Origin: Antedon mediterranea
Lineage: Eukaryota; Echinodermata; Crinoidea; Comatulida; Antedonidae
Direction: 5' to 3'
Assembly (NCBI RefSeq): GCF_964355755.1
Contig: NC_092670.1
Span: 30,491,795 to 30,555,794 of the forward strand
DNA length: 64,000 nucleotides
Shown here: positions 8,096 through 64,000 of the stretch, piece after piece
How positions within the stretch are numbered: the stretch's first letter is position 1
How the letters are laid out: each line of letters opens with the position of its first letter
Position numbers and translations under genes: made by a program
The notes under the pieces: generated by a model
Databases searched by the model: none
Told to the model about the DNA's origin: nothing
Seen by the model: the letters and a program-made list of their open reading frames with translations, nothing else

Positions 8096-8174
8096 CGTTA
8101 CAACAGTATTAAAACAAATATATCGCCAAAAATTACAGTATTGAAACTTCTAATCACTTGTGGTTCGATATTCT

Positions 8175-8320: not shown

Positions 8321-8351
8321 GTAGCCGTAATCGAAAGGAATACAGAGGGAC

Positions 8352-11300
8352 ATGTTATTGGGTCATGATTTGGACCAGAATTGTGGGGAAACAATGGCTA
8401 AAGAAATGTTCGTCCTAACTAGGGAGCAAGCCAGAATAGAAAATGATGTTAGAATACAAGACGAAATGATATTGTTAGGGAAAGATAGTAACTTTAAACC
8501 GATAGAAGAGCCGCCTAAAGAAACTAATGTACAATTGTTGAAAACAGTAGTAAATGACAACAAAGTAAATAAAACTAAGTGTTTAGATGATATGAATGGA
8601 ACAGAAATGAATAATTTGTTTGACGAAAATGAGGATAAAGCTAAAGATAAAACAGTCAAACATAAAACTTATGAACAACAGCACAAGCTGAACCTAACTA
8701 AACAAGAACTGATCAAATTGCAAACTAAGGATGACTCACTCAAAGGAGTGTTTGACAGGGTAGTCCCTATAGAAGAAATAGGTCAGCATAGGGTATGTTT
8801 CTTTATGAGACAAGGTATATTGATGAGAAATTGGAGTAGTATTAAAGATAAGAATAACCAAGTGGAACAGATTGTATTACCCACTCAGTGTAGACAGGGT
8901 GTATTACACTTAGGTCATAATGTGCCATTTGCAGGTCACATGGGTGTTGAGAAAACTAAAAGTAGGGTCCTGAACCAATTCTATTGGCCAGGTATATTTA
9001 AAGATGTGGTAGTCTATTGTAAAGTCTGTAAGGAATGCCAAAAGGTAGATAAGGGTAAAAGTAAAAGGAAACATACTTTGATACCATTACCGATTATAAG
9101 TACACCATTTAAACGTATAGCGTTAGGCATTGTTGGACCCTTATCTAGAACAAGCCGTAATAACAAATATATGCTTACTATAATTGACTATGCTACGAGA
9201 TATCCAGATGCTATCCCGTTACCCAATGTTAGAGCTGAAACAGTAGCCAGGGCTCTAATAGAAGTCTTTACTAGAGTAGGATTACCCGAAGAGATTGTAC
9301 ATGATCAAGGAACTAATTTCATGTCTTCAATTATGCAATCTATATGTAGTATGTTGGGGATTAATCAATTAAAGACTACAGTGTACCACCCCCAAAGCAA
9401 TGGGCTTGTTGAAAGATTTCACGGTACATTGAAAAATATGATAAGGACACTTACAGTTAAGCAAAGAAAAAATTGGGATAACTACATACCCCCCTTTCTG
9501 TTTGCATACAGAGAAGTTCCTAGTAAAGCGACGGGCCATTCACCTTTTAAATTGCTTTATGGTAGAGAGGTGAGGGGACACTTGAGTTTACTCAAAAGTA
9601 ATTGGGTAGAAGATGAAGAAACATCTACTGATGTTATCAAATACATGTTAGAAATAAGAGAAAAAATGGAGGAATTAATGAAAGATGCTAATGTAAACAA
9701 ACTTGAACAACAAGAAATTATGTCCCACAATTATAACAAGAATGCCATTGATAGAGAATTTGTAGAAGGGGACAAAGTGTTGATATTCCTTCCAGTAGGA
9801 AATAGTAAGTTAGACAGTAAATGGCAAGGCCCCTTCACTGTTACAAAAAAGGTCAATGATGTAAATTATGAAATATACATAGGAGGTAGAAGAAAAGAAA
9901 AACAAATTCTACATGTTAATATGTTAAAGAGATGGTATGATAAAGTAGAAATAAGTAAAGATGGTTATTATGTAGTAACAAATGTTCAGTCGATAGAAGA
10001 AGTAGACTTAAATGAAACAGTCCATGACAATGAGTTAGATAGTGAAATAGACATAGGATTGTCTTATCATCAATCACAAACATGGAGAGATGTTAACGTT
10101 AGTAGTAATTTAAATGATACACAAACTAAACAATTAACAGAATTGTTAAACTACCAACAGAATGTATTCTCGGATGTACCAGGTAGAACTCACTTAGTGA
10201 CACATGAAATTAAGACTAATGGTGAAATGCCTATAAGGCATAGGGCATATAGAACGCTCCAAGCATTAAAGGGTAAATTGAAAGAGGAATTAGATAGTAT
10301 GTTGGCTATGGGTATAATAGAACCTACTGTTAGTGCCTATGCTGCACCTATTATTGCCCTGAAGAAAGGCCAGAATCAAATTAGAATGGTGACAGATTTT
10401 AGATCACTAAATAAGACTACACAATTTGACCCTTATGTTATGCCTCGCATAGACGAAATGTTGGATGAGGTATCATCCGCAATATACATAACTACGTTAG
10501 ATCTAACTAAAGGATTTTACCAGGTGCCTCTGGATCCTAAGACCAAAGACAAATCAGCATTTATTACACAATTTGGACAGTATTGTTACAATGTACTTCC
10601 ATTTGGTATGCAAAATAGCTCTAGTACTTTCCAAAGATTAATGGATAAGGTATTACAAGGTACTGAGGGATATGCTAAGGCATATATAGATGACATATGT
10701 ATTTATAGTCAAACTTGGAAAGATCATATTTTTCATTTGAATGATGTATTAGAAAGATTAAGTAGTGCTGGATTGACAGCAAAGCCTTTGAAATGTAAAA
10801 TTGCCTATGCACAGGTAGAATTTCTGGGGCATAAGATTGGTAATGGAGAAATTAGACCCATGATTGATAAGGTTGAGGCTGTGGAAAAGTTCCCCAGACC
10901 TTTGTCTAAGAAACAAGTCCGATCATTTCTCGGATTAACGGGCTATTACAGAAAATTTGTACAGAACTATGCCGATATTGCTAAGCCATTGATTGATTTA
11001 ACTTTAAAGAGTAAAAGTAATACCGTTAAGTGGAATGAACAATGTGAAAATGCCTTTGTAACTTTAAAGAAACGACTTACTGATGATAATGTATTAAAAG
11101 CCCCAAATTTTGATAAGATGTTTATATTGCAAACCGATGCCTCAAATTATGGCATAGGTGCAGTGCTGAGCCAAATAGATGGTGAGGGTAATGATTATCC
11201 CATTGTGTACTTAAGTAGAAAGTTATCTGTACATGAGCAGAGATATTCTGTGCCAGAAAAAGAGTGCCTCTCTATTGTTTGGGCTATCAATAAACTTAAG

Positions 11301-11486
11301 TATTATCTGTATGGTTGTGAATTTCAAGTTCATACTGACCACCAGGCATTGAGATGGATGGACTCAATGAAGGGTGCCAATGTTAGACTTATGAGATGGG
11401 CTCTGTTTTTACAAGGATATAAATTTAAAGTTATTTACAAGAAAGGATCATTAAATGGAAATGCAGATGGATTAAGCCGTGCATAA
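8352..11486 (+). CDS. pol: pol of the Gmr1-like element: protease end, integrase, reverse transcriptase, RNase H
   Basis: 1044 residues. Order: protease tail (MLLGHDLD), an H-H-C-C zinc domain (about residues 184-230, ending CKVCKECQ), the integrase D-D-E core (D in TIIDYATRY ~279, D in VHDQGTNF ~318, E in NGLVERFHG ~354), a linker with a GPFTV/HVNMLKRW C-terminal integrase domain, then RT (TTLDLTKGFYQVPL ~716, catalytic YIDD at 10684-10695) and RNase H (QTDASNYGIGAV, PEKECLSIVWA, TDHQALRWMD). In ordinary Ty3/gypsy pol, integrase is last; here it precedes RT. All catalytic residues listed are present and the frame is open throughout. The printed ATG is internal to the protease; the true polyprotein start is upstream. 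Confidence 0.92.
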   Translation: MLLGHDLDQNCGETMAKEMFVLTREQARIENDVRIQDEMILLGKDSNFKPIEEPPKETNVQLLKTVVNDNKVNKTKCLDDMNGTEMNNLFDENEDKAKDKTVKHKTYEQQHKLNLTKQELIKLQTKDDSLKGVFDRVVPIEEIGQHRVCFFMRQGILMRNWSSIKDKNNQVEQIVLPTQCRQGVLHLGHNVPFAGHMGVEKTKSRVLNQFYWPGIFKDVVVYCKVCKECQKVDKGKSKRKHTLIPLPIISTPFKRIALGIVGPLSRTSRNNKYMLTIIDYATRYPDAIPLPNVRAETVARALIEVFTRVGLPEEIVHDQGTNFMSSIMQSICSMLGINQLKTTVYHPQSNGLVERFHGTLKNMIRTLTVKQRKNWDNYIPPFLFAYREVPSKATGHSPFKLLYGREVRGHLSLLKSNWVEDEETSTDVIKYMLEIREKMEELMKDANVNKLEQQEIMSHNYNKNAIDREFVEGDKVLIFLPVGNSKLDSKWQGPFTVTKKVNDVNYEIYIGGRRKEKQILHVNMLKRWYDKVEISKDGYYVVTNVQSIEEVDLNETVHDNELDSEIDIGLSYHQSQTWRDVNVSSNLNDTQTKQLTELLNYQQNVFSDVPGRTHLVTHEIKTNGEMPIRHRAYRTLQALKGKLKEELDSMLAMGIIEPTVSAYAAPIIALKKGQNQIRMVTDFRSLNKTTQFDPYVMPRIDEMLDEVSSAIYITTLDLTKGFYQVPLDPKTKDKSAFITQFGQYCYNVLPFGMQNSSSTFQRLMDKVLQGTEGYAKAYIDDICIYSQTWKDHIFHLNDVLERLSSAGLTAKPLKCKIAYAQVEFLGHKIGNGEIRPMIDKVEAVEKFPRPLSKKQVRSFLGLTGYYRKFVQNYADIAKPLIDLTLKSKSNTVKWNEQCENAFVTLKKRLTDDNVLKAPNFDKMFILQTDASNYGIGAVLSQIDGEGNDYPIVYLSRKLSVHEQRYSVPEKECLSIVWAINKLKYYLYGCEFQVHTDHQALRWMDSMKGANVRLMRWALFLQGYKFKVIYKKGSLNGNADGLSRA

Positions 11487-16939: not shown

Positions 16940-17668
16940 TGTAAGGAAAGTACTTTATAATGAACAATAAACACTCAGATTCGCCTGTGTTTGAGATGAT
17001 TTATTCAGAAACAAGATCTCATTCAAATCTGAAAGCATGAAATATAAGTCATAACTTACATGTTAGAAACAAGAACTGACGTATGATTGAATAGCTATTA
17101 TAACTTTATTTCTTAACATTTATTCAATAACTCACTGTTTGTCAGGCAAATCCCTAGCATAATCCTACTGTCATACTTTCGACCCGTCAAAATAAACTCA
17201 TTAGTAACTGAAACAAAATATTATTAATCCATGATAATTATGATCCCAAATTGTATAAACCTTTACATAAAGGTCCGCTACAATCAGTAGTAAACAAGTT
17301 CAATGTATGCTTATATAAGTCATACTGTAAGCATTCGCCGTAGTGCGTGAATTCGCTAGAGTTGCTGCATAAAGGCCTGTGCACACCGAACGCGAAGCCG
17401 CGAAGCGTCATGCTTCACGCGTCATTCGACGGATCGCTTTGAAAGTTGAATTGTCATGCGTCTATTAGTTTTTCTTGTTGGTTCCCACTAAACGCGTCAC
17501 GATGTGCTGATTCGTCGCGATTGCTAGGCCTAGGAGATAGTGGGTTGGCCAATACAATGCTACATTTAAAATAAGATGACTGAAGTATTTCCTATGTAAG
17601 TTTAACCAGAGAAGAGTTAAATTAAAATGTAATTTAACTCTTCCCTGGTTACACCAATCACAGTGTTT
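16940..17668. other. Intergenic sequence with small inverted repeats
   Basis: No gene recognised. At 17372 a block AAAGGCCTGTGCACACC resembles the right end of a repeat at 48640-48652 (GTGTGCACCGGCCTT). A 49-bp inverted repeat at 17603-17651 lies just downstream of the laccase exon. Confidence 0.4.
17603..17651. repeat. 49-bp near-perfect inverted repeat beside laccase exon 3
   Basis: TAACCAG-A-GAAGAGTTAAATT pairs with AATTTAACTCTTC-C-CTGGTTA across a short AT loop. It could be a tiny foldback insertion that removed or replaced the splice donor of laccase exon 3. Confidence 0.65.
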
Positions 17669-19283
17669 GATCAATAAGCTAAGGCTGTGTTCAGAAGGGA
17701 CACCATTGGCAGTCGACACCATGAAGATTATAGACGGAATTGATAACCAATCGTTAAATAACATGTAATGTTGTGGAAGGTCAAAGTCATATTCTTTACT
17801 GTTGAACTCTTTTTGTCTCGGTTCCCTGACAATCAATGCTCCGTACAACCCGTCACCTCTCTGAACACCAACGTGAGAGTGCCACCAATGGGTACCTGGT
17901 GGGTCTGCAACAAACTCGTACACGAAAGAGGTTGAACTTGGTATGGGGCATTGAGTAATCATCGGAACGCCATCTGCCCACACGGTGTTAAATTGATGTA
18001 TACCATGCCAATGAATTGTCAACGAACCTCCATCTTAAAGTTCGTTGTTTACTTTCACACGAATGGTATCACCATGACAGATCTGGAAATACAACAAAAC
18101 CGAACTAGAGACACTGTACTTAATATAGAACATAAATACAGTTAGATTAGTGTGGTAACAAAACTACCTTATTTAAAGGGGAATTTGGGAGCCGTCAAAA
18201 CAATAGGCCTATATACTATCTTATGGCTCACGTGACTACAATGTTGGTATCATTCACACAAAAAAGAGTCCTATGTTTTAAAATAAACTTTTCAATGACT
18301 TTTAGGAACGTCGTCAAACTAATACTTCAATTGCCATTAAGCTTAAGCTCTGTCAGCACACAAAAATGCGATGTGCCAATATATGGATATCCTATCACTA
18401 CCATGGGCAGATCACACTTTGATAGTGTAGACAGAGCTTTAGTCTACACAAGCAAACTCGCAGTTACAAACTAAAGTGATCAAATTTCCTATAGTAATTA
18501 CTCTGTTTCTAGCGGGCTTTTTGAAGTATGCACCAGTCATGGAAAAAGAAAACCAAAATGATCCCCTTTCTGAACTGTGAAGGGCGGTTACAGAATGAAC
18601 TGCAACGAAACAGAACCCAACTGACTGGGTAAATATAAATACTGTGTTAACTTTAAAATACGTTTCTGAAATTACTATTTATTTAAATTAAGATTTAGAC
18701 GCTAAGCAATGTGGTAGCTTCTGCGACAAAGATGAAATTTGTACCTGAATACTTGGACCAGGTGACATTTCATTAACCGTTAAAATTGGTCTACGTAAAC
18801 CGTCTACCGAATAACAGCGATATGCACTACAGTCTTGTCGGACATCTGGACAGTCCGTACAAGCAGCTGCTAACGTATACCACCACTTTACCGTGAACTC
18901 AAATTCGCACAATCTTGGTTTAGCGGGAAACTCACACTCACGAAAACAATCGCTTGAATTATTGACCATCAGGATATCTTGTTTAGGAGTACATTGTAAA
19001 GAAGTACAAAGTATAGCTGAAAAGGAAAACAGTACAATAATCAATCGAGTAGTAACACTAAAAATAATGCTAACAAATTACAAATGTACAACCTATACGT
19101 TTATAGGTCCATGCTTTTTTAATTTATCAAATAAAAACTTGTTTTCTAATAATTTAATTTATTGCGACAAAATGAACGTATCTTCGTCACCTTACCCGTG
19201 TTTCAAATTATAAAATAACTTTTCTTACCAGAATTAATGATTATCAAGATTACTAAAGTAGGTAGGTGTTGATTAAAATCCAT
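17669..19283 (-). pseudogene. Laccase-like multicopper oxidase, first three exons, disrupted
   Basis: Minus-strand exons: exon 1 19283-19229 (ATG, hydrophobic signal peptide MDFNQHLPTLVILIII, donor G|GTAAGA); exon 2 19016-18745 (acceptor TTTTCAG, Cys-rich start, SPGPSIQ, donor CAG|GTACAA); exon 3 18082 to about 17669 (acceptor CCAG). Phases 1 and 0 match at the two joins. Exon 3 has the copper ligand motifs TIHWHGIHQ and GTHWWHSHVG of the first cupredoxin domain, so the family is secreted laccase. An in-frame TAA sits shortly before TIHWHG (in VNNEL-stop-DGG), no convincing donor follows exon 3, and no further laccase exons lie downstream. It is therefore a truncated, probably non-functional copy. 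Confidence 0.82.
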
Positions 19284-32391: not shown

Positions 32392-33472
32392 CAAAATCCC
32401 TCCTAACAATGTTTCTTTCAAAGAATTTCTTCCTCAACCAAATCCGAAATCAATGTTCTTAACCCCCGTCCTAGAAGATGATATCATAAGAATTATCTCT
32501 TCCTTCGATAACAATAAAGCTCCTGGTACTGATGATTTCCATACTAAAGCCATTAAACATGTTATCAACCTTATCTCCCTTCCCTTGTGTCACATTTTTA
32601 ATCTTGTCCTCTGCAAAGGTGTTTTTCCGAACAGGTTGAAGCTGGCGCGCGTTACCCCTGTTTACAAATCTGGCCCCAAATCCAACCTTTCTAACTATCG
32701 TCCTATCTCCATCCTGTCAATCTTTTCGAAAGCCTTGGAAAGAATTATCTATGATAGAACTTTTTCATTTATCAGCAAACATAACATCCTCTTCAAGAGA
32801 CAATATGGCTTTAGAAAAGGACATAACACCTCCATGGCTTTGATCGACCTCACTAACAAAATTATTCATGCATTCGAAAATCGTCAATTTGGAATCGGAC
32901 TTTTCATCGACCTTTCCAAGGCTTTCGACACCATTGATCATAATATTCTTTTTTTTAAATTGTCTCACTATGGAATCCGAGGACCCGCCTTAAACGTTTT
33001 CAAAAGCTATCTCACTAACCGCTCCCAATGTACTAAATATTTTAACTCTATTTCTAATTTTTGCCCTATCACCTGTGGCGTTCCCCAGGGCTCCTTACTT
33101 GGCCCTCTTCTGTTCACCTTTTACATTAATGATATCCACCGAACCTCAAACCTGCTAAATTTTTTTATATATGCTGATGACACTACAGTTTTTCATGCCA
33201 ACAAAAATTTCCAAACTCTTTTTGACACCTTTAATACCAACGTTATCCCCTTGTCCCAGTACTTTATTGCCAACAAACTCTCCCTCAATCATAATAAATG
33301 TAGTTACATCCTATTCGGAACCCCGCAGTTGACTAGGGGTATTGATGTGTCCCCACTTAAAGTCGTTATTGATAATCAAGAAATCCCCTCTGTTAAGTAT
33401 AATAAATTTCTTGGCATTATCATCGACAACTCTCTCTCATGGAAACCCCATATCAAAGAACAAAGTGTCTAA
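32354..33472 (+). pseudogene. LINE reverse transcriptase domain
   Basis: 372 residues: NKAPGTDDF, YRPISILSIFSKALERI, GFRKGHNTSMAL, FIDLSKAFDTIDH (first catalytic D), GVPQGSLLGPLLFTFYINDI and FIYADDTTVF (catalytic DD, ~33170-33200). The frame stops at 33472; the C-terminal part (LPSFLPTNILRTLYCTLILPYLSYGN) continues in other frames to about 33800. Confidence 0.85.
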
Positions 33473-34375
33473 GAACCTTGGGATCATTTCTAGGCTTCCT
33501 TCCTTCCTCCCAACTAATATTCTCAGGACCCTTTATTGCACACTCATCCTTCCTTATTTGAGCTATGGTAACATTGTCTGGGCCAACACTTACCCTTCAA
33601 ACATCATTAAACTCTCTATCCTACAAAAAAAAAGTTATCAGGACTATATCTGGCGCTCATCCACTGTCACATTCCTCCCACTTATTCTCCAAACTCAATC
33701 TTCTCAAACTCTCGGACATTAACCTATCCCTGCAAGGTGTCTTTGTTTTTTTGGCCACTCACTCACTTCTCCCTTGCCATCTTAACGACCTTTTCGCTCC
33801 TAATATACCGTTCATAAATATTATACTAGAACAAGAAATAACATATATATCCCTAACCATAACACCAATTATTTTCAACATAGCATTAGATATTCTGGAC
33901 CTCTATTGTTTAACAATTTACCCCCCTCAATTTCCTGTGCTGCTAACCGCTATTCATTCAATAATAACATTAAAAATTACCTTTTGTCTCATTACTGATC
34001 GATCTGTTTGATATGGTCGTTGTTTCCATGTTCCGTGACTTGCTATCTTTATTACTCATTTGTCATCATATTCGCTATATGCCATGCAGCTGTACTTTTT
34101 TCTGTTCTTTTTTTTTAATTTTTTATTCCAACTTTTATCTACTGGTTTTATATATATTTTGTATTTCTTTATTGTTTAATTAATTAATTTTCTTTATTTA
34201 TATTTTTTTCTTCTCTTAATTTAAATATTTTGTAAAGGCAATCCCGTCACAAGATTGAAATCTTTTTGGGATTTGCCTTCGTCCATTTTCTTGTTTTATC
34301 ACTTGCCATTTTGTTTTTGTTACTTTTGTCTTTTGGACGTGAATAAATGTTCCTTGAATTGAATTGAAAAAATTG

Positions 34376-34717
34376 AAATAATGCAACGAGCTTATTTGGC
34401 TACTCGGTATGCATTAATCATAAAACTTCCTCGCGATCTGTGTGAAAACACCTTCTCAACCGTGACGAGTTGTAAGCAATCCTAATTAGCATCATGTATA
34501 ATGTATACTCATGGTTTGAAATCTTTGTTTACTTTCGCTCGTGACGATTTCCAGACGAAATGTAATCAAATTAATTTAGCTGTTAAGTACGTAAAATTGT
34601 TGTTTTTGGCTCGAATTTTCGACTTAAAGTGAATAACTTTAATTGTACTTTAATATGGCCAATTTAAATTTAGAATATTTTTACCTTCATTTTTTTGTGT
34701 TTCAAGTGACAATACAT
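34376..34717. other. Intergenic, no gene recognised
   Basis: AT-rich spacer between the LINE tail and the inverted laccase duplication. Confidence 0.35.
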
Positions 34718-35737
34718 CTTTAAACTATCAAAATGTCCGGTAATACCACCAGTATAGTTAACAGGTTCGCCAATGTCAAGTGTATATCCTACTATTATAC
34801 ATTATTTAAATAAAAAAAGTGAATTTAATCGTAGCTGCCTGAAAGTGGAGAAGATGGATTTTAATCAACACCTTTTTGAATGCGCCTTGAGCACTCTTGA
34901 GTGGTATGTGCGCTATAAAAATCCTGTTATTATTTATTATTATTATTACCTACCTACTTTAGTAATCTTGATAATCATTAATTCTGGTAAGCAGCGGCTT
35001 GTACGGACTGTCCAGATGTCCGACAAGACTGTAGTGCATATCGCTGTTATTCGGTAGACGGTTCACGTAGACCAATTTTAACGGTTAATGAAATGTCACC
35101 TGGTCCAAGTATTCAGGTACAAATTTGTCGCAGAAGCTACCACCAATTAATTTAAATAAATAGTAATTTCAGATATAACATATTTTAAAGTTAACACAGT
35201 ATTTATTTTTACCCAGTCAGTTGGGTTCTGTTTCGTTGCAGTTCATTCTGTAACCGCCCTTCACAGTTCAGAAAGGGGATCATTTTGGTTTTCTTTTTCC
35301 ATGACTGGTGCATACTTCAAAAAGCCCGCTAGAAACAGAGTAATTACTATAGGAAATTTGATCACTTTAGTTTGTAACTGGGAGTTTGCTTGTGCAGACT
35401 AAAGCTCTGTCTACACTATCAAAGTGTGATCTGCCCAAATAATATTTGGTAGTGATAGGATATCCATATATTGGCACATCGCATTTTTGTGTGCAGACAG
35501 AGCTTAAGCTTAATGGCAATTAAAGTATTAGTTTTACGACGTTCCTAAAAGTCATTGAAAAGTTTATTTTAAAATATAGGACTGTTTTTTGTGTGAATGA
35601 TACCAACATTGTAGTCACGTGAGCCATAAGATAGTATATAGGCCTATTGTTTTGACGGCTCCCAAATTCCCCTTTAAATAAGGTATAATTTTGTTACCAC
35701 ACTAATCTAACTGTTTTTATGTTCTATTAAACACAGT
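34718..35737 (-). repeat. Inverted segmental duplication, copy B
   Basis: Inverted copy of 18118-19418. Compared with copy A it has lost intron 1 and the first part of exon 2 and has gained about 78 bp inside exon 1. Confidence 0.85.
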
Positions 35738-36133
35738 GTCTCTTGGGGGAAAAAAGAATTATCCTATTATCTTTGTATTACCTTATTATTATCCTGTATT
35801 CTACAGTCGTGTTTTGTTTTATTTTAGAATCCGTAGATCCTGCCTTGAATACTGTTGATAATGGGCATGCGCTCCGACGTTTTTATTTCGTCGAATCTAG
35901 AAGCCAACCTAACAACATTCTCGACTTCAGTTTTTATCATGAACGATGTACAATTTGAATATCCTCATACACCGTTTGTTTCATTACAACCAGATGATGA
36001 CGTCAGCGCGTGTAAAATGCCTCCATGGAATACCACTGTGTATGTCGATGAACAGTACTGTGATATAAATAACAGTACAGATTCCAGTACAGCCTGTAAA
36101 TGTCCTATCGTCGCTAAAGTGAAGCTAGGCCAG
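34854..36133 (+). pseudogene. Laccase-like multicopper oxidase, inverted broken copy plus third-domain exon
   Basis: Plus-strand remnants. Exon 1 (ATG at 34854) is split by a ~78-bp insert at 34873-34950 that ends in TTATTATTATTA, like a LINE or SINE tail, with ACC on both sides. The exon 1 donor G|GTAAG survives at 34987 but intron 1 and the start of exon 2 are deleted. The exon 2 remnant runs to the donor at 35116 (SPGPSIQ|GT). After the duplicated intron a new exon follows at 35828-36133 (acceptor TATTTTAG, donor CAG|GTAATT). Its NDVQFEYPHTPFVSL and CKCPIVAKVKLGQ segments match the third cupredoxin domain of laccases, but the first part reads in another frame (one frameshift near 35885-35900). 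Middle exons are absent. Confidence 0.75.
35399..35507 (-). mobile_element. MITE, AAGCTCTGTCTACACTATC family (paralogue of 18344-18441)
   Basis: Carried inside the inverted laccase duplication; TAAAGCTCTGTCTACACTATC ... TGCAGACAGAGCTTAA. Confidence 0.75.
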
Positions 36134-36505
36134 GTAATTTATATATAAATTATGGTTAATTCTGACATAGGCGAGCACAATGGAAAAACTTCGGTACAAA
36201 TCTCCGCCTTGGATACCTACCTTATCTATCTCAGGGAAGATATTATAAAGAGTTTTTTAACAAAATTTATGATTTCAACAGTAGATTTTCAACTCAATTT
36301 CATTTCTTCGCAGTCAAAGTAATTTCCGGGTTTACGATGAGTTCACACTAACAGTTGTTGTGCACTCTGATTGTTTAACAATGTTGATTGGCTGAATTTG
36401 ATTAAATAAAATATTTGTTTGATTTATCAAATAATAATGTATAATGAGTGAATCAAGAGTGTAGGCCTACATTATGATAAATTTAAATTAATTGTAATGG
36501 GTTAA
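36134..36505. other. Spacer between laccase remnant and RAG1-like exon
   Basis: No coding homology on either strand. A CACAATG heptamer-like string at 36176-36182 has no partner that I can find. Confidence 0.35.
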
Positions 36506-36511
36506 AAAACT

Positions 36512-37313
36512 CACCCGTCCTCGAGTCATAAGTGACACTTTCTTATTATTCATAAGGTCTTTCCGTACTATGTTGTGTGCCATGCTTTTCAATTCTTTTG
36601 GCCAAACCTCATTTGTTTGGGCAGTACATGTAATTTCTTCAACTGCACTTAAAATTTTGGTGAATGCCTGTTCTTTAAACGTTTTGCAAACATGATTGGG
36701 GGTTTCTGACCAAACTAATTGAATTTTACATTGTTTGCATTGCAAAGGGACTCGTTTAAGCGATTGTTCTACAATAAGTGGAACTGGTTTGAGATCTTTG
36801 TTACTGACAATTTGGCTGCAGTTAAAACAATCAATTGATTCTCGTCCTACTGCCTTAAACAATTTGTTTATGCAAAATGTACAAAAAAAAATGTTGACAA
36901 GGCGTCTGCTGGCTGTCAATTGACAACAAATTATTGCATATCTGACATTCATACACTTGATTATCGTAATTTTCAAAAATTTTAAATTGAGGATTTAGTA
37001 GCAAGTGCTCATGAGTGGGAATAAAACTGCCAGTAGTATTGCTTCTGTTTTCGGGAAACTTGCATTTCTTCAGCCTTCGACCAGGTCTTGATTGTTGACT
37101 GAATAAGTAGCACGCTAAGCATTTGTCTCCATGGTCTTTGAAATTAAATGGTGTTATGTTGTGTCCACCAAGTGCCCTAACGTGACAGCTTCCACATAGC
37201 CACTTAAGATTTGGATCCAAATTATATTCATAAGTGTACTTTACATCTTTTATTTTAAATTTTTTTCCGCAACAGTAGCAAAGGGAACTCAATGCCCTTT
37301 CGTGAAACTCCAT
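36512..37313 (-). pseudogene. RAG1 N-terminal-like zinc-finger exon (N-RAG), one frameshift
   Basis: From ATG at 37313: a Cys/His cluster C12-x2-C15, C40-x2-C43, H61, C65-x2-C68 followed by GRRLKK, then a C3HC4 RING (CQIC at the start, TPCQH, CTFC, CFNC at the end) and a further CKQC...H-x-C finger with SLKRVPLQCKQC. The order of a Cys-pair domain with a basic GR-L-K patch, RING and an extra finger is that of the RAG1 N-terminal region and of N-RAG proteins of invertebrate transposons. In a T9 run (minus strand, near 36890) the frame shifts by one in the middle of the RING, so two frames overlap. A strong donor GTGAGT lies at about 36511-36506, implying further exons, but no RAG1 core is visible. 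An intact RING could be restored by a homopolymer error, so the lesion may not be real. Confidence 0.6.
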
Positions 37314-38232
37314 TACTGTATATGAAATAAAATATAATATAAAAAATTTTAAATAAAAATAGCTCCGCAGCTTATCTGTGAAATATATTTGTAATTGTAT
37401 GTGTAATTTTTATAAAGGCCTATAATAGTAGTATAGTTACAGTAATGACTGTCACTCAGTCACACCAGCTAGCCTAAAAATGCACCAGAAAAGCAATAAT
37501 TATTATTATAAACACATGCCATTAATTATTTGATAACAGTTATAATGATTAAATTTAGGATTAGGATAATTAAAGGTTTTACTACTACGAATTTTCTATG
37601 TTTGGGCCTAGCTTCATCCTAGGCCCACATTACTGTCAAGTTTATCGCCGGCGTCAACGCACTTTCTAAGCCTATCGCCAAACCGTTTTCTCGCCGATAA
37701 CAATAACAATGTATAAAGGGGTTGCAAAATATGCGAGTTTTACTAAAAACTGAACCAGGCTATATTAACATAACTTGTATTATTTTATTTATATAATAAT
37801 GATGGCCTATATTCTAGTTCGTTCTTTTTCTAAAAAAATGAATTATATCCAAAAAATAAGTTAAGAATACAATGATATTTTCTACTTACGATTGTTTACT
37901 ATTTCATTACACAGTTTCTATCGACTTCCTGGTTTATGTGTGGGAGATTATTTCAGTAAAATGGACAATATCGTCGTTTATTTATTAATTTATATTAAAG
38001 AAACAATAAAATATTGATTTTTTAATTGAACATAAACTTTTTTAATCGTTTGGTTTTATATAAAATGTGTTTTCTACATAAAAACTAACGGTAGCAAAAT
38101 TTAATTTGGCGTTCGCGAAATAATGGTTTGTGTACAAAATTCATAAGTTCGCGCGGATCGGAGAGCGTCGTCTGCTAACACTGAGGGCGCTTTACTTTTT
38201 CTGATATCTTAACACTAGTTGAAACAGCTGTG
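37314..38232. other. Upstream region of the RAG1-like exon, nothing recognised
   Basis: AT-rich; possible 5' flank or intron of the RAG1-like gene. Short AGGCCTA motifs only. Confidence 0.35.
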
Positions 38233-40586
38233 ATCGAAAAATGACGTCATGGGGCATAAGTGAATGACACGCCATTGTCGACATTTGCGTTCGTATTAAA
38301 AAGTGAATTTTAAATGTACGAATATGGTATTAATTATCTGTATTACATTGTATTATTATGTATCACATATATAACAAGTCATTTTGATAAAAAATAAGTC
38401 AAATAAATATGAAAAACAAAGGAAAATTGTGATTTTTGCATGTCATCTGAAGTGACCTTCCATACAATGTGATAGCGCCCTCTATAAGTATTGATACACT
38501 CGCACTTCAAACTGCAAGCTTTTTGTTGTTATATTCATTCATTCAGAAATACAATTTAAGGAAGGAATCGAATCAAGGGCATTATTACTTGGTTTATTAT
38601 ATATTTATGATGTTTTCCCCAAAAATAATTACTAGTATGTACATTTTGCGAATTGTAGATGTACCGGCGGTATGAAATTAAAAAAAGCTGTTTACGCGGT
38701 CTGTAGCCTAACGATATAATAATAATTATATGTATAAAATAATTGTTACTTTTTTCTGATAAATCAGTATGAATATGTTTACTTAGCGCTGCTTTAAGCA
38801 CCCTATTAAAAAAGAAAAGAAACAAATTGATTTAAGCCTATTTTTTGTCACGTTTTCGGTAATTAATTGTCTTCTTCGCTCTCACTATCTGATTCGTCAC
38901 TGTTCTCATCATCCGAGTTAAAGGAGTCGTTCTCAGCAATCGCTCGTTCAATTCTGTTGGAAGAATCTCGCTTTCACACCACAAAGGCCCCAGCAAATCG
39001 TTATCGCCAACGCACCATCCGTTATTGTCTTGGGGTTTCGGCAACTCGTAAAATCGGTGTTAGTGCGAGCCTCCACAGATCCTGACTTGATAGTTCGATC
39101 ATCGTGCGTTGTATATGTTGATGCAAGCATCTACGCGACGGTGGAAAGTTAGCTAATTTTTAAATCAATGTTTTTTTAACACTGATTATTCCGGTTTTTT
39201 TTTCTTGCATTTCCTGCGAAAAAAGTCAAATCTAAGTTTATCGGTAGGCCTACGCCTTGCTTTCGAACGGAATCCATATAATAACAGGCACGTGAACTAT
39301 TCCAGTTCCAACATTAACTCTTCTCCTTTCCAACTTTCTCCTACTTTCTTGAAAACCTTCAAATTTTGGATATTTTTCGACAAGTTTAATGGCCTTTAAT
39401 TTTCCTTTTCCCTTGAAAGCGCTGGTCGTGCTGCACTTTGTGAACGCATGCAGCCCTAGAATGGCATTACATCGACTTGGGGTGATTTCAGTGGTGGCTA
39501 AACTGGTGAGATTGGTTATTCGTCGATTCCTGCCACTGCCTGTATCGAATAGGACTTTTGCAATAATGGACGAAACAAAATGTAACAATATAAAAAAAAA
39601 ACATCGCTGTCTTATATGGATCCCGATCGAAAGCAAGGAGTACCGATGAACTTAGATTTTACTTTCTTCGCAGGAAATGCAAGGAAAAAGACGGATAATC
39701 AGTGTTAAAAAACATTGATTTAGCTAACTTTCCACCGTCGCGTAGATGCTTGCATCAACATATACGACCCACGATCGAACTATCTTGGTCATGATCTGGA
39801 AGCTCGCACTAACGCCGATTTAAGAGTTGCCGAAACCCCAAGACAATAACGGATGGTGCGTTGGCGATAACGATTTGCTGGGGCCTCTTCAAACAGAATC
39901 GGATGATGAGAACAGTGACGAATCAGATAGTGAGAGCGAAGAAGACGATTAATTACCGAAAACGTGACAAAAAGTAAGCTTAAATCAATTTGTTTCTTTT
40001 TTTTAAATATGGTGCTTAAAGCAGCGCTAAGTAAACATTATTATTCATACTGATTTATCAGAAAAAAGTAACAATTATTTTATACATATAATTATTATTA
40101 TATCGTTAGGCTACAGACCGCATAAACAGCTTTTTTAAATTTCATACCGCCGGTACATCTACAATTCGCAAAATGTACATACTAGTAATTATTTTTGGGG
40201 AAAACATCATAAATATATAGTAAACCAAGTAATAATGCCCTTGATTCGATTCCTTCCTTAAATTGTATTTCTGAATGAATGAATTTATAACAACAAAAAG
40301 CTTGCAGTTTGAAGTGCGAGTGTATCAATACTTATAGAGGGCGCTATCACATTGTATGGAAGGTCACTTCAGATGACATGCAAAAATCACAATTTTCTTT
40401 TGTTTTTCATATTTATTTGACTTATTTTTTATCAAAATGACTTGTTATATATGCGATACATAATAATACAATGTAATACAGATAATTAATACCATATTCG
40501 TACATTTAAAATTCACTTTTTAATACGAACGCAAATGTCGACAATGGCGTATCATTCACTTATGCCCCATGACGTCATTTTTCGAT
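38233..40586. mobile_element. Large foldback element with ~1-kb inverted arms
   Basis: Left arm 38233-39282 and right arm 39612-40586 are inverted repeats (for example ATGACGTCATGGGGCATAAG against CTTATGCCCCATGACGTCAT, and CTTGCTTTCGAACGG against CGATCGAAAGCAAGG) around a ~330-bp unique centre. Right arm is shorter through small deletions. No transposase. Arms and centre hold pieces of one protein-coding family. Confidence 0.88.
38838..39636 (-). pseudogene. Fragment of an uncharacterised dispersed gene family inside the foldback element
   Basis: The centre encodes, on the minus strand, ILGLHAFTKCSTTSAFKGKG followed by KLKAIKLVEKYPKF, a signature (GLHAxTGCDTTSAF-GKGK-like) of a large family of uncharacterised metazoan proteins that often occur in many copies. 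In the left arm, still on the minus strand, PKPQDNNGWCVGDNDLLGPLW and ESEILPTEL match the C-terminal region of the same family by memory. The right arm carries the C-terminal part again in inverted form, ending in a run of acidic residues (ESDDENSDESDSESEEDD). Frames are broken, so this is a remnant. Family recognition is by motif memory only. Confidence 0.5.
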
Positions 40587-41301
40587 GAAAACAAACCACG
40601 ACGAAAGGAAGCAAAAACTGCGTATAAAAACTTCATTTTCTCCACAAATCCCAACTTTTACGCGACGCAACATCAATAAATGATCTTTACATAATGTTTA
40701 AAACCTACGGTGAGAATCTCGTTGACTACTAACGTTATGCAATGGTGAAGGTGATATTTTACTGGACTATTATTAGTGTCGTCACACAGATTGTAACGGT
40801 CGATTTTTGTACTCGCCTAAACATTACCACTAACATCAAGAATAGAGTGGAGCTTATATTGACTTCTACACAGTCGAGCAGCAAAGTGCTCATTTAACCG
40901 TTAAAACGCTGTTTTTTAACTGCGCAGGTCACTGAGCATCGCCAAGTTATAGTGACTTCCGGTTCGCTTTTCACTTCGCGGCAAGCATTTTGCATGGGAA
41001 TACCCTTACAAATCTGCTGCAATTTCCACCATCCGGGTTAAATTATATCTTTCTATATTTGGAAATTGTTACTCCTAATATGGAAGATTATTCCCGCCAC
41101 AAAATTTTGGTATAAATACCCCAGGAAATGACGACAGAGCTTATTGAAGAAAAAAGTGCAGATGGAGGTGTTCGTTGAGGTAGGCTACATGATTTATTTG
41201 TTTGGTTTCGTAGGGAATCCGGCACTTTTCTCATCAGCACGGAACCTTTATAAAAACTTAGTGGTTGGTTATTAGGTTATTAATCTATCTTTTCTGAAAG
41301 T
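40587..41301. other. Intergenic, no gene recognised
   Basis: A TATAAATA string near 41112 precedes short ATG frames, but no exon can be supported. Confidence 0.35.
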
Positions 41302-41935
41302 TTAAAGCCCCATTCCCTACGTTTTTTAGATCTAATTTAAGATCACAAACTATATTTAATGTAAAAATAATACTATATGGTCCTATTGCGATAACTTTTT
41401 TCGTCTTTAAACGGTTAAAAATGTGAAAAATAAATCGATTTTAATAATTATTGCGGCCCGCTATAAATCCCAAAATGCATTGCGCGCGGATTGATATTTT
41501 TGTTTTTCACCTGTAATTCGCCCACTTTTCGATCGATCGTGAAGCCAAAACAAATGGAAGACTCCTAACTTTTCAGCGAAAATACCGGGTGTTCCCCAAT
41601 TTGTATCAACGGAGTCTGGCAAAAATAGAAAGACAATTAATGCAGCAACTATACAACGTCAGGCTAGGTATATAGCTAGCGTACGATGTTCGTACGTTAT
41701 CGATGTTTACCAGCTAGGCCTACAAAACTAAGCCTAGCTAGGCTAGGCCTAAGACCGTCCACGAGAGGTCGATCGCCGCGAGCTACTTAGGTAGTGCATT
41801 GTTTCTCACTTTTTATCATAATTTACCATAAAACGTACATTTAAGACAAGGAATGACATGGTTTAATGTTTTTAAAGTTATATATATGTATTATTTTCCA
41901 AAAAACGTCCAAAATTGCAGGGAAGGGGTCTTTAA
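41302..41935 (-). mobile_element. 634-bp MITE with TTAA ends (copy 2, inverted)
   Basis: Inverted relative to the copy at 13500-14133, same 634-bp length, TTAA at both ends and high identity through the middle (for example the GACCGTCCACGAGAGGTCGA segment). Confidence 0.8.
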
Positions 41936-43239
41936 GCTTGGTTCAGCTTGCGGGACGGATTCAATATCCGTTCAAAGCTGGGGTGGGGATATATTCTAAG
42001 CAGACTCCATCTTGGATTCGTATGTTTAGTACAGGCCGTGTGGTTGAGTAATTTCAATCCTTCAAAATCACTATGTGCAATCCGTTTTTAAACCAGTTAA
42101 TATACCAAAATATGTTATTAGTAGCTTTATTATTTTAGATTTGGTGCTAGTTTGGTAAATATTGCAATATAATTGTAGATTTGGTTGTAAAAAAATGTAC
42201 CCAACTTGTATTATCTAGGCCTAGGCTAGGCCTAGCCTATTTGACGGAAACCCAGTGCTATTTGTAGAGGGATAGAGAGAGGGCCGCAGGCTAGTTTTTA
42301 GTGGCATATCGCCGACTTATTATAATCAATGTGAAGCCATATTATGTTTAAAATGTTGAATCTATATCCACTGAATTATGGATATATATCGTCGGATATT
42401 TAAAGAAAGTCCTAGGCCTTGACCTTTTTTTAAATTTATTTAATTAATTTAGGACTATATTACGGGAAATTCTTTGCCAAAGAAAAGAAAATATGTTGTG
42501 TCTGTTGGAGGTTTGTAAATATATAATGACAATAATGTAGCCTAGGCTAGGAAGGACTGTAGGTAGGATTAGGTAATTTGGATGGTCGTACATAGTATGA
42601 TATTTATATATACAGTATAGTAGTGATCATGGCGACAAAATTTAGGATGACTAAAGTTGACATTAAAATTATTTAACTATGAATAGCTCATTATTGGTGT
42701 TTTTTTTCTTTCAGGTTTCTAAGAATAAACTATCCGACTTGTGATTCATCTTGTGCTGCAAAAACAATCCTATTTTGATATTTGTAAATTGATGTACGTA
42801 ACAGATGTCTTTAAAAATAAAAAAAAAATAAACATTTTTATTATCGCGATGATTTAACTCAAATATTGACATATATAACTTGATATTTTAGCCTGAGCAA
42901 GATAGTTTGATAGGCATATTTTACTTCGATGTAAACAAGATATTACATGTTATACTGTATGTAAAATACTTTTGTGTAAATAAAATTATTTAATGGTGGT
43001 TAATTTATTAACTTGTTAATTTGTTTGTTAGTTATGATGTTATACTATTAATTATTTAGTTAGTAACCAAAGTGGAGTGGATTCGTGGCAGTTGCAACTT
43101 GACTGTAATATGCATATATATAATAATATGTACTTCTTCTTGGATAACGTTAAAGGAAAATAAGCAATAATAAAAATTAAATATTTATTTGGCCGTAAAG
43201 AAAGCAAAAACTAAACATACAGTACTATATGTACAGTAA
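41936..43239. other. Intergenic, no gene recognised
   Basis: AT-rich with several TAGGCCTAGGCTAGGCC clusters (42215-42240, 42538-42552). No coding homology. Confidence 0.35.
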
Positions 43240-58095: not shown

Positions 58096-61000
58096 ATGAG
58101 AAGTACGGGTAACTTATTCATGAGACTAACTGGTAAGAAGTGCGCTACCAATATGGATCCTCTTGACGACAATGACAAGATTGCCATTGTAGGGATAGGA
58201 TGCAGATACGGCGACGGTGTTGAGGGTCCACGGGAAATGTGGAGTATGTTGAAGGAGATGAGAGACTGTACAACATCTCATCCCGCAGAGCGATTTGACA
58301 AATCATCCTTCTTTTTTCCTGGTGAAAAAAAGAAAGGTAAATTGTATACCAAACGTGGCGGTTACCTGAAGCAAGATCCGTTTATGTTTGACCGACAATT
58401 CTTCAGGATGTCACCAAGTAAGTATTAAGGAAGTCTGGAAGCATAAGCTGTACCGTATGTGAGTGAGCATTTACACCAAACAAAAAACTTCAAATATCAA
58501 CGATGTTTTATACCAAAATGATTGCATTTGACATTAATCTATAGTAACAATCTCACAAATTATTCCATAATTGTGTTAATTTTTTTTTTATTGTAGCAGG
58601 AAATTCAATTTTGTAATTGTTTAATTATTTCAGAGGATGGACAATTTGGGTATACTGGGTATATTTGTTACCCTTAACACTACAACTTATAACTCGTTTA
58701 AAATCATTCCCTTTTTAGGTGAAGCTGAACACATGGATCCACAAATACGAATTCTTCTTGAGGTTGTCTGGGAATCGATTGAAGATGCTGGTATCCCTGC
58801 TTCTACACTCCGTGGCTCCAACACCGGTGTGTATATGGGAGTAACGGCCAATGAATACTTTACTCTAACTCAATTCCCATTTAGCAACCTCAGTCAATAT
58901 TCAAATTCAGGAACCAACTCTTGCATGATTTCCAATCGTATTTCGTATGAGTTTGATTTAAGAGGACCCAGTTTTTCCATCGACACTGCTTGTTCGTCAT
59001 CTCTCTATGCTGTACAGGTTGCATGTGATGCTCTAAGAAGAGGGTCATGTGACACAGCAATTGCTGGTGGGGTAAATATCATTCTTACTCCTACGGTTAC
59101 AATTGGCTTTTGTCAAGCTGGTATGCTTTCTCCTGAAGGTCAGAGTAAAAGTTTTGATGCATCAGCTGACGGTTACAGCCGAAGTGAAGGTGTAGGGTCA
59201 GTATTTCTAAAGCCACTTAAAAAAGCAATAGCAGATAATGATCGAATTTATGCTGTGATACGCGGTGGTGCTCTTACAAATGATGGTCGAACACCGGGTA
59301 TTGCAAATCCAAGCTATGATGCCCAAATTGATCTCGTACACAAAGCATGTGCAGCAGCAAAAGTCGACCCATGTGATATTACATACATCGAAGCTCACGG
59401 CACTGGTACTAAGGTAGGAGACAAGACTGAAGCAAATGCTATTGGTGAATCCATGGGCAAACAACGTTCAGATGACCTGCCACCTCTGTATATTGGTTCC
59501 ATAAAGTCAAACGTAGGACATGCTGAAGGCGCTGCTGGAATAGCAGGTGTTATCAAGACAGCATTATCATTATATCATCGAGAAATTCCTGGCGTTGTGC
59601 ATTTCAAACATGGTAATCCAAATATACAATTTCATGATCTGAAACTGAGAGTTCCTTCAACAAACATCCACTGGCCAGATGGTTCCAAGTTGCTTGCAGG
59701 CTGTAGCTCATTTGGATTCGGTGGTGCTAACGCACATATTGTGTTTCAGGCTGCGCCACAAAATCAACAGCCCGTTCATCAAAACGAACATAGTTCACAA
59801 ACGTTGATTGAATCATACAAATTGTTAATGATTTCGGCTAATTCACAAGAAGCTCTTCATCAGAGGTGCATCGACTGGAAAAACTTCTTATTAAATTCAA
59901 CTGGTTTGGATTCTCTTCGAAACATGTTATATACTGCTAATGTAAGAATTTATATTCATGAAGAGAGAGCAGCTCTTATCGCCAAGTCAAGGGATGGATT
60001 TGTAGATTTGCTGCAAAAGAAAATAGACGGTGAAAGTCTAGATGATCTTATTGAAGGGAAGGTATCAGAAGGCAAGTCCACCAACGGAACAGTTTTTGTA
60101 TTTTCTGGCATGGGGACTCAGTGGTGGGGCATGGCTAGAGAGTTAATAAATACACAACCGATCTTCAAAACAGTCATAGAGGTAATTATTATTATTGTTT
60201 TTACGTAGACCTAATATCTATATTTTCATTTCTAAACTAATAATCAAATTCAAAGTTTTAAGTTATGAAGGAAAATTAGGTTATTTTAACTTGATTTCTA
60301 TGAAGGCTATGAATTCATTGTTATTTATTTGTTCTCATATGCCCCTATATCATCTCTAATGTTTAATTTATATAACACAGTTATACTCCATATGACTCCA
60401 CCAGCTTCGTTTATTAATCAAAATGCGAATGGAAGTTCCTACTATGCAACACATTCCAACCGGAAAGTGTTAAGGAATTATACTGAAGTCATTAATTAAT
60501 TAAGTTACAACGTGACGTCAGATGCATTTATAAAAATATTGAATGTAATATATGTTAATATTTGAATTATGATGCTTTTACTGAACTTAATTATTTATAG
60601 AGAATAGATGGTTATCTAGGGACGGCTGGTGGAAAATGGTCGCTTATTGAAATGTTAACGATAGAAACTGATAAAAACAAGATTAACAGCGATACAGGTG
60701 ATCTTTTTTTACTGATTCAGTCCATAACAATTTGTCTATTTGAATTGGAATCATTGATTTCCTTAAATCACTTTATTTTAGATTTTTGTATGGCATTGTT
60801 GTATCTTAATTTCGAGAATATAAATTTAAATAAATATTAGATCATCATATTTTCTGCAAACACTAAATGTAGGCTGTGTATTGTAATCCTTTTTGTATTC
60901 TTAATTCTTATTGTAATTTAATTTATTATTTTAAACAGAAATTTCTCAAGTCTGCATTTGTAGCATTCAGATTGGATTAGTTGAACTGTACAAGCATTAT

Positions 61001-64000
61001 GGAGTAAGGCCGAGTGCCGTAATTGGTCACAGTGTAGGTGAAGTAGCAGCAGCCTATGCAGCTGGACTTATCACCATGAAAAATTCAGTTAAAATTATCT
61101 TTAACCGAGGACATATTCTTAGAAAGACAAGTGGCTCAGGAACGATGGTTGCAGTTCTTCATGACGTGGATGTTGTTAAAAGTAAGCTGGAATCTACTCA
61201 AACAATACTAGACATAGCTGCTATAAACAGCCCTGCACAAATTGTATTGTCAGGAAAAACGGGGTTAATTAATGATTTTTCATCCCATCTAAAAAAAGAG
61301 GGCATAGTGGTAAAATTACTAAATGTTAATAATGCATTCCACAGTTATCATCAAGAAGGTTTAAAAAAAGAATTTGTTAGTAAGATTAGTTTCCTTCAGA
61401 AAAAAACCTCTTCAACAAACCAAACAGCCGTTATTCCAATGATGTCAACTGTAACTAACCGGTATGTTACTTTACAAGAGGCGAATGATCCTGGTTACTG
61501 GTGGAGTAATATTCGTCAGAAAGTACGTTTCAGAGACGCAGTAGATGCCATACTAAATGACGGTTATAGTGACTTTATAGAAATAGGAGCTCATCCAGCG
61601 CTGTCACCATCAATTAAAGAGATTATATCTTCCAAATCAACTAAACTAATGGTTCACTTTATAACCCATTCCCTTAAACGACCACGTGATATAAGTGATT
61701 CTGCTAATGACAATCTAAATTTCATTACGTCATTGGCGCATATGTTTGTTCGCGGTTACTCTGTTGATATGACACCATGCTTCCAAGAGATTACCTGTCA
61801 GGTATTGTCCTTACCATTGTATCCATGGCAACGTATCATGTGTTCTGCAGTAACTACATCGAGGATTGAAACCATGCGATATCCAAACACTTTCCATCCA
61901 CTTTTAGGAAAACCAGACAACTCTGCTAACTTCACAAAAAGTTCAGGCTTACAAGTTTGGAAAGGCACTGTGGGGATTGTCGAGGAGCCATGGATTGCCG
62001 ATCACGTTGTTCAAGGTAGCGTAGTTTTTCCGGCTGCTGGATTTATAGAGACATCAATTGCGGCACACCATGAACTGTTTACAGATTCTCCTCATGTAAT
62101 TATAAAAGACATGCATTTTGACCGTTTTATGTTTGTTTCCGACAACAGTGCGACTGTAGAAACAACAACAAAGATGGAAACTGGTGCAGATACAGCCTCA
62201 TTTATATTCTGTTCTTTTAATAAAACAGACAATAAGTGGATACAACATACATCAATGAAATTACTCAAAAATGAAGAAAGATCTGGAAACAGCATAGTTT
62301 CAAGTAAACAGATGTATCTTCCTGTAAATGAAATTAGAAATAGATGTTCCGAAGAACTTAATGGCAAATCTAGTTTCTATTCCTTCATTAAACAACTTGG
62401 TTTTGATCTAGGAGACAGTTTTATGTCCATTGAAAATATAAAGCTAAATAAAGTAGCTGACGAGGCAATTTTCTATCTTCGAGCACCTGATACTGTTGCT
62501 GCACAGTCCAGTCGATTCTACATTCATCCAGCTTTTCTCGATGGTATATTGCAAGGAATGATGGGCCTTGAGCGTCTGTATAACGCTAAGTTAAATCCAC
62601 ATATGAAGTCTGGAGGTCGTGTGCCTCGATCAATCGAAAAGCTACAATTGAAGAATTGTAAATTCCCAGATGAAATATTTCTTCATATTAATCTAATCAA
62701 TGGCGATAAAGGTGTATATGCAAACGTTTCAGTTGCCGATGCAGAAACACAAGAGATCATTGCAAGATGTTCAAATTTACGTTTCGGACCAGTTGGTAGT
62801 AGTAATAGTACTGACGATAACGCACTAAAAATATGGGAGAAAAAATGGGTACCTATAGATATTGGTATGGAAATCAGCGATACAACTGACCTGATATTGA
62901 TAACGGGTGATGACAAGAAATTGTCTTTACAGCTTAAGGAGACATTTGCTTCGGTTGGACTTCTTTCAGACACTTACAACGAGACAGATATTCAAACAGT
63001 GAAGATAAACATGGATACTACACCCTTGTCGCATGTTATAATCACAATTGGACGTCATAATGAGGATAATCCGAACGAACTTTGCAGAGAACAGTTTTTA
63101 GAGTACCATTTCAAAACTGCAGAGATGTGCATCAGTCAATATAAAGCCCTATCAACCAAGAATGACATAAATCCAAAAATATGGTTCATTACAAGAGATG
63201 GAGTTTGTGCTAAACAAGATGACATTGTCGATCCTTACCAAACTTACGCCTCAGTGTACGGATTTGGAATAAGTGTAATTCAGGAAAATATGAATTTTGT
63301 TCCTACTATTATAGATATTCCATCAGATGTTAATAATAAAACAACAGCTAGATGGTTGCTGAAATATATCAGAAGGAGTGACACTGATGAGACATTCATT
63401 GCATTACGCCATCACAAATCATCTTCAAAACCAACAGATGAATTTAAAACGTATGCATACCGTTTGCGCATAAGTGATATCTATGACTTTCCCTATAAAA
63501 AGTCATCCAAACAATGGAAACTTGACATCCGTCAAAGTATTCAGACAGGGAGACTTTTACTGAAAAAGTACCTTCCAACCAATGACGAAACAAAGCCTAC
63601 AGAATTTTCAGCGGTAACTATTGAAGCATTCATGCTACTGTTAGGCGATTCTGAAGACTCAAATGGAGTTGCACACCCAGTGGTTATGTTTTGTGGTCAT
63701 TCAGGCCAATCCACTGTGATTGGTGTTTGTTCTTCAAACGACTTACAATCTACAGTGCAAGTTAGTGCCAAAGATCTAATTGCACTCAACACCAACCTTC
63801 CTTCTACAAAAGTCATAAACATTGTCTCATCATACTTGCTTCCATTTATTATTGTCCGTGATCTAAAACCAAGCGGTACGACTATTGTTTGCATGGAATC
63901 AATTGATGACACACACTGTTTAGCTGTTGCACACATGGCTATAGAACTAGGTCACACTGTTCTGGTAGTTGTTACACGATTTCCAGAAGAATATACCAGT
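58096..64000 (+). CDS. Type I polyketide synthase (animal FAS-like), 5' part, runs off the window
   Basis: Iterative multidomain synthase that condenses malonyl units. Exons: 58096-58417, 58719-60181, 60601-60697, 60939 to the window end, all with GT/AG ends and matching phases (1, 0, 1). Ketosynthase: IAIVGIGCRYG, catalytic Cys in DTACSSS (58991), His in EAHGTGT (59396) and NVGHAEG (59519). Acyltransferase: FVFSGMGTQWWGM, nucleophile Ser in GHSVGE (61031), then AFHS and YWWSNIR. Dehydratase: His in HVVQGSVVFP (62003) and Asp in FLDG (62540). From ~63600 the sequence aligns by eye with an enoyl reductase, but the NADPH-binding GGVG position reads SIDDTHC, so it is probably inactive. Exon 1 start could also be the ATG at 58159. 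Animal FAS-like synthases of this kind make echinoderm pigments and other polyketides; the product here is unknown. Confidence 0.93.

Follow-up and report, generated by a model that had tools for sequence, protein, structure and literature searches.

A RAG1-like zinc module on a truncated Chapaev transposon copy in the crinoid Antedon mediterranea, with ends resembling recombination signals in related subfamilies

Our results indicate that the RAG1-like zinc region in this part of the Antedon mediterranea genome is almost certainly exon 1 of a Chapaev cut-and-paste DNA transposon, in a young copy that has lost its 3' part and carries a frameshift. The copy lies in a window of 64,000 nucleotides, by which we mean the whole stretch of DNA that was analyzed (NC_092670.1, positions 30,491,795 to 30,555,794; Table 1). 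The window copy itself has neither a transposase core nor a 3' end. We assign it to Chapaev because it is 99.26% identical to a complete copy (L005) over 1889 bp, in the only HSP at 1e-5 within 33001–42000. In the complete relatives, which encode proteins of 890–947 residues, the RAG1-like zinc module is followed by GRP at the junction of exons 1 and 2 and then by a DDE core.

Table 1. Parts of the transposon copy in the window (positions of the window)
Feature	Position	Strand	Details	Basis
Truncated transposon copy, almost certainly Chapaev	36345..38232	minus	5' end at 38232; 3'-truncated, break at 36345 inside exon 2	
5' terminus	38194..38232	minus	CACAGCT heptamer-like end 38226–38232, 23-bp spacer, A-rich inner box AGAAAAAGT 38194–38202	Flank and breakpoint comparison; scan of the identical sequence in L005
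Exon 1, RAG1-N-terminal-like zinc module	36515..37313	minus	Frame interrupted at about 36891 by one extra base	
Chapa-type zinc cluster and basic patch	37065..37280	minus	Three C-x2-C pairs, His	Sequence; invariant columns and RAG1_imp_bd matches in relatives; domain name from PMC4411706, as far as its available text goes
C3HC4 RING	36818..36947	minus	Frame change inside	zf-C3HC4 at 1.3e-5 in intact L005; RAG1 alignment of relatives
C2HC finger at the site of RAG1's post-RING finger (ZFA)	36686..36739	minus		Aligned relatives
Intron 1	36392..36514	minus	Donor GGGTGAGT, acceptor TTCAG	Start of exon 2 by homology to L005
Exon 2 remnant	36345..36391	minus	Starts with the P of the GR/P motif	

The window copy and its family

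Read on the minus strand, exon 1 opens its zinc pattern with C-x2-C, C-x2-C and H-x3-C-x2-C. The basic patch GRRLK comes next, then a RING of the C3HC4 type and a C2HC finger, and a strong donor follows the exon. The initial annotation had described a Cys-pair/His cluster, a basic patch, a C3HC4 RING and an extra finger in the order of RAG1, and all of these are indeed present. It was also right that a strong splice donor follows, but not about the position: the exon runs over 36515–37313, and the donor GT is at 36514–36513 and not at 36511. No terminal repeats had been seen nearby, yet there is one, CACAGCTGTTTC at 38232. A 3' terminus of the copy is not found in the window, and the likeness to L005 ends at 36345. 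Because its 3' end is missing, the copy is probably immobile, and it cannot make a transposase.

The two reading frames seen in the window are parts of a single exon, split by one additional base in a T run at exon position 423. Apart from this insertion, exon 1 differs from that of L005 by two substitutions. Exon 1 of L002 (on C5) carries the identical insertion and 14 substitutions relative to L005. An insertion in the RING coding sequence is common to two copies that are 99.26% (window) and 97.4% (L002) identical to L005; it would be either inherited or a recurrent slip.

A 152-residue query yielded at least 84 dispersed genome matches at E≤1, on every contig from C1 to C11 (these contain about 353.5 of the 354.4 Mb of the 18-contig assembly). 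Among the matches are stop-free frames of 283–306 residues with about 98%, 51% and 37–38% identity; many others are short or broken. About 20 matches retain just about 30 codons of exon 1 (e.g., L021). When seven diverged copies of exon 1 are aligned, 29 columns are invariant, 20 of which are Cys or His. The Cys/His pattern is kept in all seven exons, and zf-C3HC4 is recognized in six of them at E≤10. The number of genome matches, the long stop-free frames and the 29 invariant columns mean that the zinc pattern is not due to chance. As for the host, one tektin exon scores best against chain 8snb_8Q, a sea urchin structure (176 bits, with 138 for the next chain), which makes an echinoderm plausible, whereas a second tektin exon is nearest to Tektin-3 chains. 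A search of the assembly for mitochondrial COX1 found nothing.

We built three gene models from the three subfamilies compared (L005, L007 and L008). They have 11, 11 and 10 exons and encode proteins of 890, 896 and 947 residues. All introns are GT-AG with phases that are consistent across the models, and exon 1 is joined to nine or ten more exons, the joins being modelled from the comparison of copies. All three proteins have GGDKGG, FGDY, C-x2-C, LH, H-x4-H and EQGGE, in this order. The core motifs D, D, E, C(2)C, LH and H(4)H are likewise found in every model and are absent from the truncated window copy. Pfam DUF1280 matches both models that were scanned (5e-14 and 1.3e-17), while Pfam RAG1 matches neither of the two at E≤10. 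A genome search for DUF1280 returned at least 54 matches. According to the available text of PMC3985635, DUF1280 is the Chapaev transposase and has been placed in one clade with RAG1.

At the junction of exons 1 and 2, eight of nine copies read GR/P (L005, L007, L008, L011, L012, L027, L030 and L032). Where L011, L012, L027, L030, L032 or L039 offered more than one possible acceptor, we took the one giving the most similar sequence. The ninth copy, L039, reads GK/I with an uncertain acceptor, and it also lacks the signal-like end layout described below, a coincidence seen in a single case. No junction was obtained for L015.

Relation of the zinc module to RAG1

The pieces of the window match poorly on their own: phmmer with the broken piece found no PDB match up to an E of 10, and the best Pfam values are 0.0095 for the broken piece and 0.2 for the second piece. 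Relatives were therefore required for a comparison with RAG1. A profile made from seven exon 1 relatives has RAG1 as its top match in the PDB (6.5e-9). In a full-length chain of RAG1 (6oem_A), residues 102–380 align in a single stretch with profile positions 4–217, at an E of 2.1e-8 for the whole sequence. Other RINGs rank below RAG1 in the same search, BRCA1 at 1.3e-6 and TRAF6 at 1.8e-6. The proposed match to the N-terminal region of RAG1 has thus held up, and the profile does not lead to TRAF or an unrelated RING instead. A TRAF-like or BRCA1-like RING was considered and rejected, as RAG1 scores higher. At the level of sequence, homology between exon 1 and the RAG1 N-terminal region is supported.

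We used Pfam RAG1_imp_bd as a stand-in for a Chapa model. It matches three of the seven exons at E≤10 (best 3.6e-5) and the exon of L039, which represents a further subfamily, at 7.2e-8. Genome-wide it marks five places, two of them near DUF1280 matches (C3:30572981 and C7:11338499) and one of them L038, a decayed relative of L039. The other two belong to a P-element-like transposase, with frames in L036 and in L037 (the latter known from its frames alone). The frame in L036 (1495–3357, on C5), with a similar one in L037, matches TNP-like_RNaseH_N at 7.9e-25. The N-terminus of the L036 transposase matches zf-AD at 0.0012 and RAG1_imp_bd at 0.0049, both below the curated cut-off.

That Chapaev elements can have a RAG1-like front is already known. 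Two Chapaev subgroups carry a Chapa domain followed by a RING, as in RAG1, together with a distant Transib-like core (Kapitonov and Koonin 2015, PMC4411706), and our elements are the same in these respects. The available text of that paper states that the Chapa domain is encoded by no other known transposable elements. Vertebrate RAG1 has a Chapa-like zinc cluster, a RING and the next finger in equal order. It differs from the elements described here in that these have a DUF1280 core instead of a RAG1 core, a C2HC last finger, and are transposons. Between the catalytic cores and RAG1 there is no significant sequence match; two collinear stretches scored −3.9 and −2.6 bits.

Element ends and rival explanations

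Copies of the same subfamily have in common the sequence from a CAC to a GTG, and CAC..GTG ends are found in seven elements of subfamilies A, C and D. Target duplications of 4 bp flank seven of the eight elements that were bounded by copy comparison (L005, L006, L009, L010, L025, L026 and L027). In the eighth, L028, the first bases at the ends are mutated and a matching duplication was not found. L039 also has a CAC end and a 4-bp duplication, though both were search criteria. CAC/GTG ends and duplications of 3–4 bp are shared with published Chapaev elements, for which C(2)C, LH and H(4)H are given as further hallmarks in the part of PMC4079192 at hand.

A search for the 5' end gave 79 matches, of which 27 belong to a related subfamily and were left aside, so that 52 remain; the 3'-end search gave 51. 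The 27 copies set aside have 5' ends CACAGCTGTTTCAACCAATG and were found as rows with two mismatches. Of the 52 5' ends, 45 face a 3' end no more than 15 kb away, with each 3' end used once. Most pairs (30 of 45) are spaced by 3.3–3.8 kb, three by 6.77–6.79 kb, one by 1.04 kb and 11 by 4.5–12.4 kb. Seven 5' ends, including that of the window copy, and six of the 51 3' ends are unpaired. L025 and L026, both of the 3.75-kb class, are 97.8% alike. Aligned to L005, L025 lacks exon 1 as well as the exons holding both D.

One could also argue that the window holds a stand-alone or domesticated N-RAG gene, as the window has exon 1 only. We give this next to no probability. The frame is broken, the sequence is truncated at 36345, there is a transposon end at 38232, and near-identical copies lie on further contigs. 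The initial annotation had offered this possibility together with a transposon relic and an exon far from its RAG1 core; it is the relic that stands, whereas the other two do not agree with relatives in which exon 1 is joined to a DUF1280 core. A window copy made of one end and an N-RAG exon without a core is also what the available text of PMC8355894 describes for N-RAG-TP of Aplysia, where a RAG1 N-terminal-like sequence likewise sits on a transposon. The copy could then be a non-autonomous transposon built from the RAG1 N-terminal part alone. It is very unlikely that this applies here: the window has no 3' end, and L025, the sole non-autonomous class compared in detail, dropped exon 1 instead of retaining it. 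Unlike N-RAG-TP, the complete elements here have a transposase core of their own.

Membership in a RAG1-RAG2-like transposon (RAGL/ProtoRAG, TransibSU) would be in line with the CAC ends and with an N-terminal module that is collinear with RAG1 102–380. We consider such an origin extremely unlikely, because the core is DUF1280, with no Pfam RAG1 match at E≤10 in the two models scanned, and because the duplications are 4 bp long (seven of eight elements), compared to almost always 5 bp in RAGL according to the available text of PMC7204232. Genome searches with Pfam RAG1 and Pfam RAG2 returned 0 matches each, which is weak evidence since the controls were silent.

Recombination-signal-like layout of the ends

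For the Chapaev elements to which we assign the window copy, we asked in ten 5' ends and six 3' ends which spacer, from 6 to 33 bp, gives the closest fit to the RSS nonamer ACAAAAACC. In nine of the ten 5' rows the highest-scoring match, alone or in a tie, has a spacer of 21–23; in seven it is the unique best. The ties are L007 (23 with 24) and L012 (10 with 22), and the exception is L039, with a spacer of 12. For L011, L012 and L032 we located the 5' end through a terminal motif (matched at 12, 12 and 9 of 12 positions) and not through a duplication. At the 3' ends, the best match is at spacer 12 in subfamilies C (L009) and D (L027). L028 likewise gives 12 if its 3' end is placed at the mutated CAC (18 in the raw row), and in L005 (subfamily A) spacers of 9 and 11 tie. 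The 3' ends of L025 (also of A) and L039 show nothing of this kind in the scan. Ends without a settled position are those of L030/L031 (N runs), the 3' ends of L032 and L007, and those of L040/L041.

We shuffled each tail 5000 times and recorded how often an equally good match arose in spacer windows of 21–23 and 11–13; these windows follow the RSS rule and were chosen once the pattern was known. The products are 1.2e-5 for subfamily C, 8.3e-5 for D and 0.009 for A; as the subfamilies are related, the end rows are not independent. Single 5' ends range from 0.01 (L032) to 0.13 (L042). When the two ends are compared with each other, those of subfamily C have CGAGACAAAAAGTG exactly in common, offset by 9 bp, and 0 of 2000 shuffles were as good. 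The offset is 10 in both D (22 of 2000 as good) and A (78 of 2000). In subfamily E this comparison found no common box (1972 of 2000 as good). The layout sought, a CAC heptamer with an A-rich nonamer 23 (±2) or 12 (±1) bp away, looks clear in C and D, weak in A and absent in E. This suggests that the ends of subfamilies C and D resemble recombination signals, with a CAC heptamer, a 21–23-bp spacer versus a 12-bp spacer and an ACAWAAAGT box.

RAG1 reads the nonamer with GGRPR. Apart from the letters GRP, we know of no likeness of the proteins described here to the RAG1 nonamer-binding domain. It is possible, but in our view rather doubtful, that Chapaevs with a RAG1 front also use bipartite ends in RSS layout (heptamer, 21–23- versus 11–12-bp spacer, ACAWAAAGT box) that are partly read by GRP. 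Whether or not this is so, our main reading of these Chapaev elements is that the transposase would bind both element ends, cut at CAC and reinsert with a 4-bp stagger, and that internally deleted copies would have been mobilized in trans. The zinc module would work as it does in RAG1, in dimerization and possibly as a ubiquitin ligase, and contact between GRP and the inner A-rich box is conceivable.

The asymmetric, RSS-like ends in Chapaev subfamilies are what is new here. In the literature that we searched there is no account of Chapaev with nonamer or heptamer–spacer signals; Repbase was outside this search, and a published description may exist. Compared to the published Chapaevs, two subfamilies here have 12/21–23 heptamer/A-rich-box ends, and the exon 1/2 junction has GR/P; neither appears in the available text of PMC4411706. 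Beyond V(D)J recombination, the available text of PMC8355894 (2021) reports 12/23 asymmetry only for some Transibs and states that RAGL ends do not obey it. Like our elements, these Transibs have a CAC heptamer, an A-rich nonamer-like box and asymmetric spacers of about 12 and 23. Unlike them, they are described there as lacking the RAG1 N-terminal region and as having 5-bp duplications.

The origin of the RAG1 N-terminal region and of the 12/23 rule is a long-standing question. Here, one genome contains young, apparently complete elements that pair a RAG1 N-terminal region with a related transposase, and the ends of two subfamilies look like a 12-signal and a 21–23-signal. If Chapaevs with a RAG1 front do use such ends and read them partly by GRP, then the zinc front, the signal of 12/23 type and the AT-hook that reads it would be one ancient set that predates the split between Chapaev and Transib/RAG and was not assembled late in vertebrates. 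If the pattern extends to other Chapaevs, tests of end spacing and end binding would become feasible in an outgroup of RAG.

The window also contains other coding sequences. Polyketide synthase frames (ketoacyl synthase, acyltransferase, dehydratase) lie at 58625–60205 and 60935–63997 on the plus strand, and a multicopper oxidase frame (Cu-oxidase_3, 2.8e-25) lies at 17468–18034 on the minus strand. There is a retroelement frame at 5003–8149 on the minus strand, in addition to an open frame at 8331–11483 on the plus strand, in which integrase domains come before reverse transcriptase and RNase H. The latter either has its domains in an order uncommon among gypsy-type retroelements or consists of two fused elements.
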